Part shown: one piece after another, positions 30,934 through 36,600 of the stretch
Position numbering within the stretch: the stretch's first letter is position 1
Layout of the letters: every line of letters begins with the position of its first letter
Source: Subtercola boreus
GTDB lineage: Bacteria > Actinomycetota > Actinomycetes > Actinomycetales > Microbacteriaceae
Direction: 5' to 3'
DNA length: 36,795 bases
Assembly: GCF_003399645.1 (NCBI RefSeq)
Contig: NZ_NBXD01000006.1
Location: 1-36,795 of the forward strand
Notes under the pieces: model-generated
Databases searched by the model: none
What the model was told of the DNA's origin: nothing
The model's input: the letters and a program-made list of their open reading frames with translations, nothing else
Translations under genes and position numbers: made by a program

Positions 30934-31215
30934 TTACCGGCGGTCGTTGGTGAACGTCGCGAGCAACTCACCGATCCGGTGGTCGCGATCGAGGGGATGC
31001 CGTAAGGGCATGTCGGGTTTGAGCCGGTAGATGTTGCGCCGACCGTCGCGTTCGCGCTCCAGATAGCCGGCTTCTTCAAGTTCGGCAACGATGCGCTGGG
31101 CTGCACGTTCGGTGATGCCCACGAGAGTGGCGACGTCCCGCAACCGCACGTTCGGGTTCTCGGCGACGCACAGCATTACGTGCGCATGATTCGTGAGAAA
31201 GGTCCAATGCGCCAT
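30934..31215 (-). CDS. Small winged-helix transcriptional regulator
   Basis: A 93-residue protein that is almost only a DNA-binding domain. MAHWTFLTNHAHVMLCVAEN starts it, NVRLRDVATLVGITERAAQR is the helix-turn-helix, and ELEEAGYLERERDGRRNIYR is the second helix and wing. This resembles ArsR/MarR-type winged helices and the regulators of this size found beside actinobacterial carbon-uptake genes. ATG 31215 fits the start of the domain; the longer frame overlaps the divergent operon. It is divergent from the DabB/DabA operon and is the natural candidate for its control. No sensor domain is present, so the signal may come through partner binding or oligomer state. Confidence 0.8.
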   Translation of the reverse strand: MAHWTFLTNHAHVMLCVAENPNVRLRDVATLVGITERAAQRIVAELEEAGYLERERDGRRNIYRLKPDMPLRHPLDRDHRIGELLATFTNDRR

Positions 31216-31321
31216 TTTCCCATTGTGCACCCACGAACCCGAATGCCCTCGATCATTTACGCGACTTTCATCATATGCTATATATTTCAGGTAATTGGTT
31301 TCTTGGTATGGAGGACGTGTG
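31216..31321. promoter_or_regulatory. Divergent promoter region of regulator and inorganic-carbon operon
   Basis: An AT-rich island at 31262-31290 stands out from the GC-rich surroundings and includes a small dyad, ATAT-GCT-ATAT, at 31273-31283. It may hold the promoters of both directions and the binding site of the winged-helix protein. GGAGG at 31310-31314 is a good ribosome site, seven bases ahead of ATG 31322. Confidence 0.45.
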
Positions 31322-32836
31322 ATGGATGAAGTCGTGCTGGCAGCGACGATCGTTGTGGCGTGGTCGACCACCGCGATCGCTGCAGCCCTGTGTTGGCTCA
31401 GGTTCTCGTCGCACATCACGGCCCGGATCGCCGCCGGGATGACGGGTGCGAACTTCGTGATCGCCGTTGCCTCCGCCGTGCTGACACTGGCTACTGGCCC
31501 GGTGACCCTCGCGCTCGGGCAGTCAAGCGTGCAGCTCGACCCGCTCTCCGTGCTGCTCTCAGTGCTCGTCCTCGGCCTGAGCGCCCTGATCCAGTCGTTC
31601 GCGGTGCGCTACCTCCGAGGCGACCGACGCCAGGGCTGGTTCGTTGTGGTGGCGACTACCCTGACGGCGGCGACCGTGCTGCTCGTCTGTGCGGCATCCG
31701 TTCTCGTTTTCGCCCTTGCATGGGTGGCCGCCGGGGCGGCCCTCATCGCAGCGCTGGCGACCTACCCCGACCTGCCTCAGGCGCACGAGGGGATCCGGCG
31801 CACCGCCCGTCGATTCGCTCTCGCGGATGCGGGCCTGCTCGTGGGTGTCGGGGTCCTCCTCGTCGCGGGCGGCGGTGACCGGTCCCTGCGGGAGCTCGGG
31901 TCGATCGCAGCTTCCCTAGGGGAGCCGCTGAGTCTGACCGTGGCGGCCCTGCTCGTGATCGCGGCGCTCGCCCGCTCCAGCCAGCTCCCCTTCCACGGCT
32001 GGCTGCCCTTCACCCTCGCCGCGCCGACCCCCGTATCCGCGCTCATGCACGCGGGCGTTGTGAACGCGGGGGCCATTCTGCTTGTGCGCTTCTCCCCCGT
32101 GATCTCGGTGCACGCATGGCTCATGACCACGATCGTGCTCCTCGGCGGTGCGACCCTGGTGTGGGCATCCGCCGCCCGCCTTGTGCGCCCCGATGTGAAA
32201 GGCCGGCTTGTCTATTCGACGATGGCGCAAATGGGTTTCATGATCATGGCCTGCGGACTCGGCGCCTACGCCGCTGCGATCTTCCACCTGATCGCGCACT
32301 CACTGTTCAAGTCATCCCTGTTCCTCGGTGCAGGCATGGGCGTGCGCCGGTTCGTCACCGAGCGGGATCGGCCGGCAGCGGAACCCGTAACGGGTGTCCG
32401 GCGGGCGCTCGCCCTGCTCATCGCAATCGTGGTCCCGGTCTCCGGGCTCATTGTCGCCGAGCTGCTGCTCACCCGCCCGATCGCGCCAGCGAACCTGACC
32501 TTGCTGGCATTCGTCGCAGCCACAGGCGTCATCACCCTGGCCGCGACTCTGACCGGCCGGTTCACTGTTGGAACGCTGCTGATCGGTGTCACCGGAATAC
32601 TGACGCTGATCCTCGCGTACATCGCGTTCCTCAACACCTTCTCCGCGGCGCTCGACCCCGTTCCCGCGTCGGCGTCGGCGCCGGCTTGGCTCGTCGCGAT
32701 CCCATTCGCGGCGCTCCTCACCCTCGATCTACTCACCCGCACCCGCACGACATCGCGGTTGCGTGATCGGGTCTACGGCCTGGCGCTCACCATCACAGAA
32801 CTCAACCCGTCCCTCGCGAAAGGCCTCCCCCGATGA
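31322..32836 (+). CDS. dabB: DabB-like proton-conducting membrane subunit (NuoL/MrpA type)
   Basis: A 504-residue polytopic protein of the NADH-quinone oxidoreductase chain 5 / Mrp antiporter family. About 13 hydrophobic segments are seen, with the family core SSQLPFHGWLPFTLAAPTPV followed by SALMHAGVVNAGAILLVRF, and KGRLVYSTMAQMGFM and HSLFKSSLFLGAG. The Lys and His residues in these helices form the proton path in relatives. Overlap with the DabA gene (ATGA) marks it as DabB, the partner that couples a cation gradient to inorganic-carbon uptake, rather than a complex I subunit. ATG 31322 was chosen over the adjacent GTG 31319 from ribosome-site spacing. Confidence 0.9.
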   Translation: MDEVVLAATIVVAWSTTAIAAALCWLRFSSHITARIAAGMTGANFVIAVASAVLTLATGPVTLALGQSSVQLDPLSVLLSVLVLGLSALIQSFAVRYLRGDRRQGWFVVVATTLTAATVLLVCAASVLVFALAWVAAGAALIAALATYPDLPQAHEGIRRTARRFALADAGLLVGVGVLLVAGGGDRSLRELGSIAASLGEPLSLTVAALLVIAALARSSQLPFHGWLPFTLAAPTPVSALMHAGVVNAGAILLVRFSPVISVHAWLMTTIVLLGGATLVWASAARLVRPDVKGRLVYSTMAQMGFMIMACGLGAYAAAIFHLIAHSLFKSSLFLGAGMGVRRFVTERDRPAAEPVTGVRRALALLIAIVVPVSGLIVAELLLTRPIAPANLTLLAFVAATGVITLAATLTGRFTVGTLLIGVTGILTLILAYIAFLNTFSAALDPVPASASAPAWLVAIPFAALLTLDLLTRTRTTSRLRDRVYGLALTITELNPSLAKGLPR

Positions 32837-35268
32837 GTCTCATTCTCCGCGCCCACGTCGCCGCTGCCGCTCATGACATCGTGCCATCATGGCCGCTCGA
32901 CTCGTTCATCGCCGTGAACCCCCTCGCAGGGGCCGAGAGCCGTCCGTTCGGGTCGGGTGCCGATCCTGATGTGGCCATCACCCGATCAACCGCCGACTTC
33001 GTCACCGACTTTCATCGCGGACGAATCCCTGTCGAAGCGCTTGAGCGGGCCCTTGTCGCCAGGATTCCAACGCTCGCGCAGACAGTACCGCTCGGTGAGA
33101 AAACGCTGCCGGCAGCCACCATCGCAGCTCTCGACATGATCGAATGGCCCGATAGCGAGGCCGGGACTGTACCCGCCGAGGACACCGCTCTCGACCGCTC
33201 GCTGTGCATATGGATCGCCGCCTATCTGAACCCCGACCCACTCTGGGCGATGCCTCATCGGGATCAGGGCTTCTACGCCGCATGGCGCCGGCTCGCCGCG
33301 GGCGACCTCGCTCTGCCCCGGCCGTCTCGGCGCCGGATCGCGGATGCGCCCGAGGATGCAGATGCTGCGCTCCAGAAAGCGGTCTCAGCTGTCGCGCCGA
33401 GCGAGCTGCACAACTACCTCCGCGCCCAGCTGGCCCCGCTGCCGGGGTGGGTGGCCCACATCAAGTGGCGGGCCGAGAAGGTGGGCGACATCGACCTCAC
33501 AAACTACCTCGCCGTGCGACTCACTCTCGGAACCACGCTCGAAAGCAATCTGGTGACCCCCGTGACTGCGGTACCCGCGCCCGTTGACACGACGTGGGAG
33601 CGGGCGGGCCGCATCGCGGTCTCCGTTACACGGGGAGCTGCAGGGCCGGAGGTTGTCGCGGCCGTCGCGCGGGTGCTCGCCGAGCATCCGCCAGCTGAGC
33701 ATCTCCTCACCTGGCAGGCCGCGTATGAGGAGGTCTATCGCACCGAACTGGTGGGGATGCTGCGCTCGATCGCTGAGCCGACCGAGCGCCCCGACGTGCA
33801 GGTAGTACTGTGCATCGACCCGCGATCAGAAGGCCTGAGACGGCACCTGGAACGCTATCGAGGAGTCGAGACACTGGGATTCGCCGGGTTCTTCGGCGTA
33901 CCGATTCGGTTCTCGCGCTACGCCGCGCAAGGCGCAATGAATGCCTTGCCTGCACTTCTCACCCCCCGGCACCGCGTCACTGAGCATCCCCTCGACACCC
34001 GCGCCGCCGCGCGCACCGTCGCCGCCGCGCGCCGGCGCGGGGCGTTCGGCCACGCGCTGCGCACCGCGGACGCCGCTACCCTCAGCCCGTTCGCGTTCGC
34101 CGAGACAGCGGGCTGGTTCTCCGGCGCGTTGACCGCGCTGCGCACGCTCGCACCCTCCACACATGCCCGCCTCGAGCGCGCCCTCTCATCGCGACCCGGC
34201 GACCTGCCCGCCCGGCTGACAACAGACGGGAGCTTCACGCTCGACGAACGTGTGTCCATGGCTGCGACAGCGATGCGAGTCATGGGGCTGACCCGGCCAG
34301 CCCCACTCGTCGTGCTCACTGGCCACGGCTCGCACTCCACCAACAACCTGTACCAGTCAGCATTGGACTGCGGCGCCTGCGGAGGCAACCCGGGTGGAGT
34401 CAACGCTCGTGCGGCGGCGGAGCTGTTCAACGACCCGGAAGTGCGAGCGGCTCTGGCCGGGAACGGCCTGAGGATCCCCGACGACACCGTGTTCGTCGCA
34501 GCGGAGCACGATACCGTGCGCGACACAGTCACCGTTCTCGATCGCCACAGCATCCCCCAATCGCACCTCAAGCAGGTTCGGGAATTCGAGGAGCTGCAGG
34601 CCGAGGCCGGCACCCGCCTCGTCACCGAACGTGCCCGCACCCTACCGGGGGCACGTTCGCGACGTGCGGTGGAACGGGTGCGGCAGCGGGCTGACGACTG
34701 GGCCGAGGTGTACCCGGAGCTCGGCCTCGCAGGAAACGCCGCAATGATCATCGGTCCACGCGAGCTGACCCGCGGCGTCGACCTCAGCCGTCGCGTGTTC
34801 CTACATTCCTACCGCACCGAACTCGATCCCGACGGCTCAGCACTGGAGACGATCATGACCGCGCCGCTCATCGTCGCCCAATGGATCAACCACCAGTACT
34901 ACTTCTCCACACTCAACCCGGGCACCCTGGGGGCCGGGACAAAGACGATCCATAACGCGGTCGGCACCCTCGGGGTGCTAGCCGGACACCGCGGCGACCT
35001 CCGACGCGGACTGCCGTGGCAGTCGGTCGGTTTCGGCAGTGAACTGCTCCACGAACCGATGCGTCTCACCGTCGTGATCGAAGCCGCGCTCGATCGGATC
35101 GGCCAAATAATCTCCGCCAACCAGGTCTTGCGCAACCTCCTCGACAACGAATGGATCACCCTCACTGCCCGCGACAACATCCACCACCCATGGCACCGCT
35201 ACACCCGCTACGGGTGGACGCCCACGATCACCCTCACCGCCCGCCAGAACCAGGAGACCCCGGTATGA
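32833..35268 (+). CDS. dabA: DabA (DUF2309) inorganic-carbon transporter subunit
   Basis: An 811-residue soluble subunit of the DAB system, which captures CO2 and converts it to bicarbonate vectorially in complex with DabB. The beta-carbonic-anhydrase-like site is intact: C327 and D329 in VVLCIDPRSE, H498 in LTGHGSHSTNN and C513 in DCGACGGNPGG. The 15-residue step from His to Cys equals that of the Halothiobacillus protein (H524/C539), and the Cys-to-His distance is within two residues. WPLDSFIAVNPL at the start and HHPWHRYTRYGWTP near the end are further family marks. It should sit at the inner face of the membrane. In a heterotroph it would supply bicarbonate for anaplerotic carboxylations. 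Confidence 0.93.
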   Translation: MSLILRAHVAAAAHDIVPSWPLDSFIAVNPLAGAESRPFGSGADPDVAITRSTADFVTDFHRGRIPVEALERALVARIPTLAQTVPLGEKTLPAATIAALDMIEWPDSEAGTVPAEDTALDRSLCIWIAAYLNPDPLWAMPHRDQGFYAAWRRLAAGDLALPRPSRRRIADAPEDADAALQKAVSAVAPSELHNYLRAQLAPLPGWVAHIKWRAEKVGDIDLTNYLAVRLTLGTTLESNLVTPVTAVPAPVDTTWERAGRIAVSVTRGAAGPEVVAAVARVLAEHPPAEHLLTWQAAYEEVYRTELVGMLRSIAEPTERPDVQVVLCIDPRSEGLRRHLERYRGVETLGFAGFFGVPIRFSRYAAQGAMNALPALLTPRHRVTEHPLDTRAAARTVAAARRRGAFGHALRTADAATLSPFAFAETAGWFSGALTALRTLAPSTHARLERALSSRPGDLPARLTTDGSFTLDERVSMAATAMRVMGLTRPAPLVVLTGHGSHSTNNLYQSALDCGACGGNPGGVNARAAAELFNDPEVRAALAGNGLRIPDDTVFVAAEHDTVRDTVTVLDRHSIPQSHLKQVREFEELQAEAGTRLVTERARTLPGARSRRAVERVRQRADDWAEVYPELGLAGNAAMIIGPRELTRGVDLSRRVFLHSYRTELDPDGSALETIMTAPLIVAQWINHQYYFSTLNPGTLGAGTKTIHNAVGTLGVLAGHRGDLRRGLPWQSVGFGSELLHEPMRLTVVIEAALDRIGQIISANQVLRNLLDNEWITLTARDNIHHPWHRYTRYGWTPTITLTARQNQETPV

Positions 35269-35582
35269 ACAACCTCACCCGCATGACTCGACTCGAAATC
35301 ATCGTGCCCGCCCGGGATGCTCCGGCGATCCGCGAACTCATCAGCTCCGCCGGAGCCACCGGATATACCTCAGTCACGGGCGTGTCCGGAATCGGCCACC
35401 ACGGACAACACTCTGGATCGCTGCTCTTCAACGAATACGACACCCTGACGATGCTCATCACTGTGATGCCCGAAGGCAAAGCGGGTGAGCTCATCGACGC
35501 CGTGCGCGAACTGCTCAACGCCTCCAGCGGGGTGATGTTCGTCGCCGAGACCTACGTGAGCAGACCCGAATACTTCCAATGA
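35265..35582 (+). CDS. PII-like signalling protein
   Basis: A 105-residue protein with the PII ferredoxin-like pattern: MTRLEIIVPARDAPAIRELI (first strand and helix), GATGYTSVTGVSGIGHHGQH leading to the T-loop region, LTMLITVMPEGKAGELIDAV (third strand and second helix) and GVMFVAETYVSRPEYFQ at the end. The classical GlnB T-loop Tyr motif is absent. It resembles the carbon-related PII-like proteins (SbtB, CPII) that bind adenine nucleotides and sometimes bicarbonate. ATG 35265 overlaps the DabA stop (ATGA). The likely role is to gate DabA/DabB according to energy state or inorganic carbon; this is inference from position. Confidence 0.8.
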   Translation: MNNLTRMTRLEIIVPARDAPAIRELISSAGATGYTSVTGVSGIGHHGQHSGSLLFNEYDTLTMLITVMPEGKAGELIDAVRELLNASSGVMFVAETYVSRPEYFQ

Positions 35583-36418
35583 CGAATACACCCTCCCCGT
35601 ACACCGGAAATACAATCGTGTTCGCGACGATGCACGGTAAGGAAAACCTCGCCGCTCCAGCGTTCGCCGAACAACTTGGCGCCATCGTGATCGCACCCGA
35701 CCACCTCGACACCGACCAGTTCGGGACCTTCGCCGGCGACATCCCCCGCACGCTCAGCCCGCTCGCCGCTGCCACGGAAAAGGCGCGACTGGGTATGCAG
35801 CTCACGGGACTGCCCCGTGGCCTCGCCTCCGAAGGAAGTTTCCGCTCGAGTCTGATCGGTGTTGGAACAACCGAAATCCTCCTCTTCGTCGACACAGAAC
35901 GCGGTATCGAGCTCCTCGAGCGCGCATCCGGCAGTTCACCTCTGCCCGCGGCTGGTCGGGTGAAGACGCTCAACGAGGCCCTCACCGCGGCAGACGCACT
36001 AGGATTCCCGGAACAAGGACTGCTACTGCACGCCGTCCGAGGCACGACAATCGACATCCACAAGACAATCAGCACCCGCACCGAGCTCGCAGAACTCGTC
36101 ACACGCTGCCTCGACAACGAAACGGCGCTCACCATCCTCCCCGACCACCGAGCACACCGGTCACCATCCCGCGCCAACCGCATCCAATTCCTCTGCGTCC
36201 GAATGGCGCTCCGCCTCGCAACCCCCTGCCCGACCTGCGCAACCCCCGGCTACGGACTCATCGACGTAGAAACCGGCTTGCCCTGTGTTGCCTGCGGAAC
36301 GCTCACCAGAGGTATCGCCGCCGACATCCACGGATGCGGGGCCTGCACCCAAAAACAACTACACCCACGTCGCGAAACGCACGCAGACCCAGCCACATGC
36401 GACCACTGCAACCCCTGA
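35579..36418 (+). CDS. Cysteine-rich protein resembling DUF6671
   Basis: A 279-residue protein of unknown function. The N-terminal part (residues about 10-200) is a globular alpha/beta domain beginning TIVFATMHGKENLAAPAF, with VIAPDHLDTDQFGTFAGD and ILPDHRAHRSPSRANRI. The C-terminal 80 residues carry four CxxC pairs (CPTC, CVAC, CGAC, CDHC), so two zinc ribbons are likely. No membrane segment or signal is seen. It overlaps the PII-like gene (ATGA) and so is tightly bound to the inorganic-carbon operon. The DUF6671 label is from memory of similar proteins and is moderately sure. A regulatory or assembly role is possible, but nothing in the sequence proves it. Confidence 0.65.
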   Translation: MTNTPSPYTGNTIVFATMHGKENLAAPAFAEQLGAIVIAPDHLDTDQFGTFAGDIPRTLSPLAAATEKARLGMQLTGLPRGLASEGSFRSSLIGVGTTEILLFVDTERGIELLERASGSSPLPAAGRVKTLNEALTAADALGFPEQGLLLHAVRGTTIDIHKTISTRTELAELVTRCLDNETALTILPDHRAHRSPSRANRIQFLCVRMALRLATPCPTCATPGYGLIDVETGLPCVACGTLTRGIAADIHGCGACTQKQLHPRRETHADPATCDHCNP

Positions 36419-36600
36419 ATCGACCACCAGCCCGCCACTCGAAGCCCCTCTGGCAAGCCACCATCATCATCGTCATCCTCTACACACTCGCCGCTCTCGT
36501 TCTCCGCCTAGCCGTCACACTCCTCCGCTACGGATCAATCGAATACCCCAGAAAAGTCAACTTCCGAGACGTTCTCAACCGAAAGTCGGTAACCCCCTAA
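36397..36600 (+). CDS. Small single-helix membrane protein
   Basis: A 67-residue protein starting at ATG 36397, overlapping the end of the cysteine-rich gene by 22 bases. One membrane helix (ATIIIVILYTLAALVLRLAV) is flanked by Arg- and Lys-rich ends; the C-terminus is SIEYPRKVNFRDVLNRK. An in-frame start at 36334 would add 21 residues of low-complexity, Arg-rich sequence that is only the shadow of the other gene. No family is recognised. It is the last gene of the operon and could anchor a partner to the DabA/DabB membrane complex. Confidence 0.55.
   Translation: MRPLQPLNRPPARHSKPLWQATIIIVILYTLAALVLRLAVTLLRYGSIEYPRKVNFRDVLNRKSVTP

Follow-up and report, generated by a model that had tools for sequence, protein, structure and literature searches.

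DUF6671 proteins are associated with bacterial inorganic-carbon uptake: a DAB operon with a CPII-like gene in Subtercola boreus

The right end of contig NZ_NBXD01000006.1 of the actinobacterium Subtercola boreus carries, on the plus strand and in this order, dabB and dabA (the gene pair of the DAB type of inorganic-carbon uptake system), a gene for a PII-like protein and a gene for a DUF6671 protein (Pfam family PF20376), and a divergent winged-helix gene lies before dabB. The whole stretch of 36,795 nucleotides that was analysed is called the window here; it is one complete contig (ending at 36795) of a 3.67-Mb genome in 86 contigs. A sequence-only reading of the window had proposed that the last two genes, one for the DUF6671 protein and one for a small one-helix protein behind it, are functional members of the transporter or of its regulation. 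The proposal was supported for the DUF6671 protein, which was tied to inorganic-carbon uptake in independent samples, and was not supported for the one-helix open reading frame (ORF).

DUF6671 was counted together with DabA and with SbtA, a bicarbonate transporter unrelated to DAB, in a class sample of 197 genomes and a phylum sample of 396 genomes. The class sample had DabA in 17 genomes and DUF6671 in 5; four of these five DUF6671 genes were within about 3 kb of dabA, and the fifth adjoined sbtA and a winged-helix gene. In the phylum sample, DUF6671 was found in 8 genomes, DabA in 23 and SbtA over the family cut-off in 18, three SbtA matches under the cut-off being left out of the count. All 8 DUF6671 genomes had DabA (6) or SbtA (2), with a hypergeometric P of 6.8e-9, or 6.6e-8 if the window's own genome was left out. 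The two samples together gave 12 DUF6671 genomes, 9 with DabA, 3 with SbtA and none with neither, and DUF6671 was no more than 4 kb from dabA in 8 of the 9 DabA genomes (the exception is G270). DUF6671 was not found in a control set of 14 genomes, two of which have DabA and three SbtA.

Plasmids gave the same association, in a set without any ranking by similarity to the window. DUF6671 was present on 12 of 72,556 plasmids and DabA on 123, and at least 8 of the 12 also carried DabA, against a chance expectation of about 0.02; on 7 of those 8 the two genes were no more than 5 kb apart. On three Arthrobacter plasmids an annotated sodium-dependent bicarbonate permease (SbtA-type) adjoined DUF6671, which brings the DUF6671 plasmids with DabA or SbtA to at least 11 of 12, and the twelfth had the gene order TerC-DUF6671-PyrC. 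The Arthrobacter plasmids (L138-L140; L numbers are our handles for loci) were typed as conjugative, and on them the permease gene is followed by a gene annotated as "transcriptional regulator" or "hypothetical", divergent from DUF6671. Two of the three have a copy of ilvD. This set of genes is a mobile bicarbonate-uptake module.

Gene order was analysed in a ranked set, the best 80 of 442 DUF6671 relatives from a scan of genome contigs, taken by likeness to the window's protein and leaning towards actinobacteria. There dabA lay within 5 kb of DUF6671 in 45 loci; in 37 of them it preceded DUF6671 on the same strand by at most 1.5 kb, in 5 it was on the opposite strand and in 3 downstream, which means at least three arrangements, and sbtA lay within the locus in 6 of the 80. 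Among the 28 genomes with neither transporter in the locus, DabA was found elsewhere in 13 and SbtA in 11 (both in 3), and in all DabA or SbtA was found for 72 of the 79 ranked loci checked, a count that includes the DabA of L069, a fragment of about 120 residues. Locus L052 was left unclassed, its contig being cut immediately ahead of the PII-like gene. The loci are partly non-independent: L026 and L057 are apparently one contig (length 37177) with an identical PII-like protein, and L063, L068, L074 and L084, L089 are more than 90% alike.

On a DUF6671 tree of 78 rows, the "dab" label needed 12 changes, 6 of them forced by well-supported branches, and none of 500 shuffles was as low; the "sbt" label needed 6 changes, 5 of them forced, and 82 of 500 shuffles were as low. 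By these counts the associations look to have been gained or lost several times, not inherited once. DUF6671 is associated with inorganic-carbon uptake in general, with DAB as well as with the unrelated SbtA.

Several results weigh against this reading. Most DabA genomes had no DUF6671, which was present in 4 of 17 in the class sample and in 6 of 23 in the phylum sample. Only one of the three sampled SbtA genomes had sbtA near DUF6671, and in the other two the genes were on separate contigs. The ranked set offers no background rate for comparison outside the window's phylum, and 7 of its 28 genomes with neither transporter in the locus had no DabA or SbtA match genome-wide, many of these 28 being metagenome bins. 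By the sequence-only reading's own account, absence of the partner genes from most related DAB loci would speak against it, and here the result is divided: most DabA genomes are without DUF6671, but where DUF6671 is found, DabA or SbtA is usually found too (12 of 12 genomes, at least 11 of 12 plasmids and 72 of 79 ranked loci). Because most DabA genomes are without it, DUF6671 is an accessory and not a core subunit, and DAB works without DUF6671.

Could DUF6671 nevertheless be a structural subunit or an assembly factor of the DAB complex? In the 37 of 45 DabA loci mentioned above it follows dabA on the same strand at no more than 1.5 kb, and a single ORF of 1,034 residues on a Parachlamydiaceae chromosome contains both DabA (residues 14-734) and DUF6671 (756-1034), in a record that has ambiguous bases. 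Because of this single ORF and the direct adjacency, physical contact between DUF6671 and DabA is possible. But DUF6671 also goes with SbtA in genomes without DabA, and stands beside sbtA itself, and together with its absence from most DabA genomes this makes a subunit role unlikely in our view. Because two unrelated transporters are accompanied, a role in their shared physiology, namely in sensing or answering a shortage of bicarbonate, fits better than a DAB subunit.

The conserved residues and the predicted fold suggest what this role might be. All 78 aligned members matched PF20376 (the 78-row alignment leaves out L052, L057, L067, L071, L081, L085 and L097 of the 80 loci; in L081 the DUF6671 frame is split over two ORFs). 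Eight cysteines in four CxxC pairs (C217/C220, C236/C239, C253/C256 and C274/C277) were invariant in all 78 sequences, and the other invariant residues include H19, K21, T45, D46, G49, T50, F51, R57, K68, E85, E99, D105, D189, R191, A192 and R198. The structure model had a predicted local distance difference test (pLDDT) of 94.3 and a predicted template modelling score (pTM) of 0.89. In a Foldseek search of the PDB with this model, ranks 1 to 6 were five YjjX chains and the Ham1 protein TM0159, with probability 0.99-1.00, followed at lower ranks by Maf, YceF, a Pyrococcus NTPase and KomBC with weak RimK and LysX/ArgX matches interspersed. In the viral library BFVD, cassava brown streak virus polyproteins took ranks 2, 3 and 5, and these viruses encode Ham1, according to the accessible part of PMC6640186. 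When the DUF6671 profile was compared in local mode with 38 E. coli proteins, RdgB (Ham1) came first with 31.2, against 20.1 for the next (P 4.4e-4). These results make an ITPase (Ham1/Maf/YjjX)-like fold of the N-terminal part, about residues 1-214, likely but not proven. The four-CxxC tail is predicted to form zinc ribbons, probably; the Pfam matches listed for the 78 members include weak ones to zinc ribbons, among them that of NADH pyrophosphatase. A search of PDB sequences with the DUF6671 profile gave six matches, mostly zinc-binding pieces, with a best E of 0.13.

The ITPase-like fold has its own difficulties. The YjjX and Ham1 fold scores were moderate (best E 4.1e-4, template modelling (TM) score at most 0.46, only 2 PDB matches with E <= 0.001), BFVD gave no match with E <= 0.001, and the top BFVD match has an unrelated name (A0A481YYL1, a 588-residue "oxidoreductase" of Marseillevirus LCMAC202). 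The RdgB match spans RdgB residues 3-65 at a probability of only 34%, YjjX (sixth, P 0.045) and the two Maf proteins did not rise above the controls among the 38 E. coli proteins, and no ITPase family was among the 25 listed of 60 Pfam families for the 78 members. Proof of homology was also sought by comparing the DUF6671 profile with YjjX alone or with four YjjX-type sequences, and neither comparison was significant. If the fold is taken at face value, it resembles that of house-cleaning ITPases, and DUF6671 might be an ordinary house-cleaning nucleotide pyrophosphatase that is carried along with the operon and has no functional tie to it. This we regard as very improbable, in view of an association with two unrelated bicarbonate systems that is seen in genomes and on plasmids, in differing gene orders and with many context changes on the tree.

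Other neighbours of DUF6671 were clustered by single linkage, and the clusters of dihydroorotase PyrC (8 loci), isocitrate dehydrogenase (7 loci), beta-carbonic anhydrase (7 loci, all with DabA) and LysR regulators (20 loci) take their names from the single member tested in each. Among the tested neighbours, two matched PurK, one PurE and one threonylcarbamoyl-AMP synthase; threonylcarbamoyl-AMP synthase also lies near DUF6671 on a Nocardia plasmid. PurK, threonylcarbamoyl-AMP synthase and the formation of carbamoyl phosphate use bicarbonate. Neighbours without a bicarbonate link also occur, such as acyl-CoA dehydrogenase, penicillin amidase and DAHP synthase. Some of these neighbours fit a different explanation, in which DUF6671 is a zinc chaperone or maturation factor whose cysteine tail gives zinc to DabA, beta-carbonic anhydrase and dihydroorotase: the eight cysteines are invariant, all three enzymes occur as neighbours, and TerC-type metal proteins lie near DUF6671 on two plasmids. 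However, the other main partner is SbtA, which is not known as a zinc enzyme, many of the polar residues that never vary are found elsewhere than in the cysteine tail, and the zinc-starvation markers CobW/COG0523, FolE2 and Znu were not among the families listed (25 of 45 and 25 of 37) for 143 neighbours at 28 loci. We hold zinc delivery to be improbable, and prefer a role of DUF6671 in regulating bicarbonate supply.

Some small genes were also observed beside DUF6671. A protein of about 190-215 amino acids that looks like a beta-carbonic anhydrase by eye (L077:9360-9935, L094:10934-11524, L097:1562-2215; the L077 copy had no family match) is encoded in L077 by a gene with sbtA on one side and DUF6671 on the other, and in the two DAB loci L094 and L097 by a direct neighbour of DUF6671. 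At seven proteobacterial loci (L063:10874-11092 and L067, L068, L074, L084, L089, L120) a protein of 72-82 amino acids follows right after DUF6671, and its L084 copy had no NCBIfam match. At four Bacteroidota loci DUF6671 comes after an isocitrate dehydrogenase gene and a small protein (L087:9615-9977, L090:9647-9967, L099:9705-9977, L104:9717-9995), of which the L104 copy had no family match. L051 (Microbacterium) and L052 (Tessaracoccus) have identical 60 bases after DUF6671 and an identical PII-like protein, which is recent transfer or contamination.

The sequence-only reading had described a DAB operon with a PII-like control gene, and this was borne out: DabA, DabB and the PII-like protein were all matched by family and by solved structures. 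A profile of 26 PII-like sequences (the window's and 25 relatives) was compared with solved proteins and matched CPII of Thiomonas intermedia (5d4n) with E 1.2e-27, cyanobacterial SbtB with E 3.4e-13 and the best entry named GlnB with E 2.3e-6. The model of the protein (pLDDT 86) had a TM score of 0.87 and 39% identity to CPII 5d4n_A, and CPII structures with ADP and bicarbonate were among its fold matches. By sequence and model, the protein is of the inorganic-carbon type, closest to CPII, further from SbtB, and nearer to both than to GlnB/GlnK. It is the sole match to the P-II family in the window's genome. CPII of Thiomonas intermedia is associated with carboxysomes. In the class sample, in which some contigs are short, 4 of the 16 DabA loci besides the window's (L025, L026, L028, L029) had a PII-like gene. 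Because SbtB acts on SbtA, we infer by analogy that the CPII-like protein may regulate DAB; in the accessible part of PMC8438413, SbtA uptake is abolished by co-expression of SbtB.

The DAB pair itself is ordinary. The best solved match of DabA was DabA2 of the DAB2 complex (9rd0_A, E 9.4e-105) and that of DabB was DabB2 (9rd0_B, E 4.8e-39). For DAB2, the available part of PMC13144422 gives the zinc ligands Cys351, His524 and Cys539 and the dyad Asp353-Arg355. C327, H498, C513, D329 and R331 of the window's DabA correspond to C351, H524, C539, D353 and R355 of DabA2, with equal spacing within motifs, and because the zinc-site and dyad residues are kept, the pair looks intact. The window's genome also had one match for beta-carbonic anhydrase. 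The features of the operon region are collected in Table 1.

Table 1 Features at the right end of the window
Feature	Position	Strand	Evidence
Winged-helix (MarR-like) regulator, 93 aa, divergent from dabB	31215..30934	-	PF12802 MarR_2 31.6 bits (cut-off 27); PF01047 28 bits (cut-off 24.6)
Candidate promoter/operator block TGCTATATATTTCAGGT upstream of dabB	31276..31292	+	Partly invariant in 9 aligned intergenic regions; putative function
dabB, antiporter-like membrane subunit, 504 aa	31322..32836	+	PF00361 123.5 bits
dabA, beta-carbonic-anhydrase-like subunit, 811 aa	32833..35268	+	PF10070 740.6 bits
CPII-type PII-like protein, 105 aa	35265..35582	+	PF00543 (P-II) 69.2 bits
DUF6671 protein, 279 aa: predicted ITPase-like N-terminal part (about 1-214) and four-CxxC tail	35579..36418	+	PF20376 113.6 bits (cut-off 23.8)
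Short ORF for one helix (67 aa if begun at ATG 36397), probably outside the system	36397..36600	+	No family match over cut-off

The divergent winged-helix gene, which the sequence-only reading had also pointed out, is present and recurs in related loci. Homologues (28-row alignment) were found at 26 of the 45 DUF6671 loci with DabA, against 6 of the 35 without, and the gene was at 5 of the 16 DabA loci besides the window's in the class sample, again with some short contigs. A GGAGG lies upstream of the dabB start. A block about 30-45 bases before dabB (TGCTATATATTTCAGGT in the window) is partly invariant among 9 aligned intergenic regions and near-palindromic in two of them (L045 and L047). 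A palindromic operator before dabB was sought in these 9 regions, and the window's block was not near-palindromic.

The remaining gene of the proposal is the one-helix ORF. In that proposal each start overlaps the previous stop, which is right for dabB/dabA, dabA/PII-like and PII-like/DUF6671, all three being 4-base ATGA overlaps; the best ATG of the last ORF overlaps the end of DUF6671 by 22 bases and not as an ATGA. The overlap and the hydrophobic stretch that it encodes are consistent with a system of all five genes. However, no relative was found among the ORFs of 97 fetched loci (phmmer, E 1e-3), and in 15 related loci (the 11 ranked highest and four further Microbacteriaceae) the stretch directly behind DUF6671 held nothing alike. 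In L053, one of these 15, an unrelated-looking hydrophobic ORF of 78 amino acids follows DUF6671. With no relative seen at these loci, the one-helix ORF is probably not a member of the system, and a five-gene system must be considered extremely unlikely.

We propose the following explanation for the other genes. DabB and DabA, as members of a solved family, would act as a one-way carbonic anhydrase driven by the proton motive force. The CPII-like protein, if it behaves like CPII and SbtB, would sense adenine nucleotides and possibly bicarbonate and tune the pump. DUF6671 would be a conserved accessory of bacterial bicarbonate supply that serves DAB and SbtA; it may bind or hydrolyse a nucleotide, and in this way make or clear a signal for the PII-like protein, or be a switch on the transporter. 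The divergent winged-helix protein may control the operon, perhaps at the TGCTATATATTTCAGGT block, and the terminal one-helix ORF would stand outside the system. We think it probable, with fair but not high confidence, that the locus is such a CO2/bicarbonate-supply operon with DUF6671 as a nucleotide-binding or nucleotide-hydrolysing regulator; the direction of regulation is a guess, and this counts against the explanation. A wider idea, which we put forward only tentatively and consider rather doubtful, is that DUF6671 could be the nucleotide-handling core of a general bicarbonate-starvation response: it would make, clear or read a nucleotide that reflects stalled PurK, threonylcarbamoyl-AMP synthase or carbamoyl phosphate/PyrC reactions, and together with PII-like proteins would set the activity of DAB or SbtA.

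The setting of the operon was also considered. The G+C content of the operon (31322-36418) was 66.6%, against 60.3% at positions 1-30000, and a DabA match was absent from all 8 genomes of the same family in the class sample; these two observations hint at horizontal acquisition of the operon. Near the contig end (36688-36751) there is a 17-base imperfect inverted repeat, 82% complementary with arms 30 bases apart, which may mark one edge of an insertion element. The contig part 1-30107 much resembles sugar catabolism, with ABC sugar transporters, GFO/IDH/MocA dehydrogenases (one of which distantly resembles levoglucosan dehydrogenase), xylose-isomerase-like TIM barrels and LacI- and IclR-like regulators; two of these genes were family-tested and the other names were assigned by eye.

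No paper on DUF6671 or PF20376 was found in one open library when searched under these names only, and a DUF6671-type partner is not described in the accessible parts of PMC8438413, PMC7714395, PMC10880623, PMC6689103, PMC13144422 and PMC8552792. DabA, DabB and the PII-like protein add a member to a known kind of system, and the interest lies in DUF6671, which the data link to inorganic-carbon uptake in general. This gives a first functional context to a family that occurs in many phyla and for which the name search brought up no paper. Tied to DAB and SbtA and often beside PII-like sensors, DUF6671 is a testable candidate for a controller of bicarbonate supply, and perhaps a neglected component of the means by which bacteria obtain it.

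Four known systems can be compared with this locus. The ITPase-like pyrophosphatases (RdgB/Ham1, YjjX, Maf) are the best fold matches of the DUF6671 model, and RdgB was first among the 38 E. coli proteins, but DUF6671 differs from them in its extra cysteine tail, its own conserved motifs, a weak sequence similarity and the genomic link to bicarbonate uptake. CPII of Thiomonas intermedia (PDB 5d4n, 5d4o, 5d4p) is the closest solved protein to the window's PII-like protein in sequence and fold, but the window's gene lies in a dabAB operon without a carboxysome gene, and its product has the loop SGIGHHG where CPII has SGKGSHG. The SbtA-SbtB system shares a PII-like partner of an inorganic-carbon transporter, and SbtA is also the second system that DUF6671 accompanies; however, SbtA belongs to a different protein family (PF05982), for which the window's genome had no match. 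In staphylococci, mpsC is dispensable and is not collocated with mpsAB outside staphylococci, according to the available part of PMC6689103. The DAB/DAC complex (DabA2-DabB2 of Halothiobacillus neapolitanus and MpsAB of Staphylococcus) shares with the window the DabA and DabB families, adjacent genes, the zinc ligands and the Asp-Arg dyad, whereas the window's pair is linked in addition to a CPII-like protein, DUF6671 and a winged-helix regulator.

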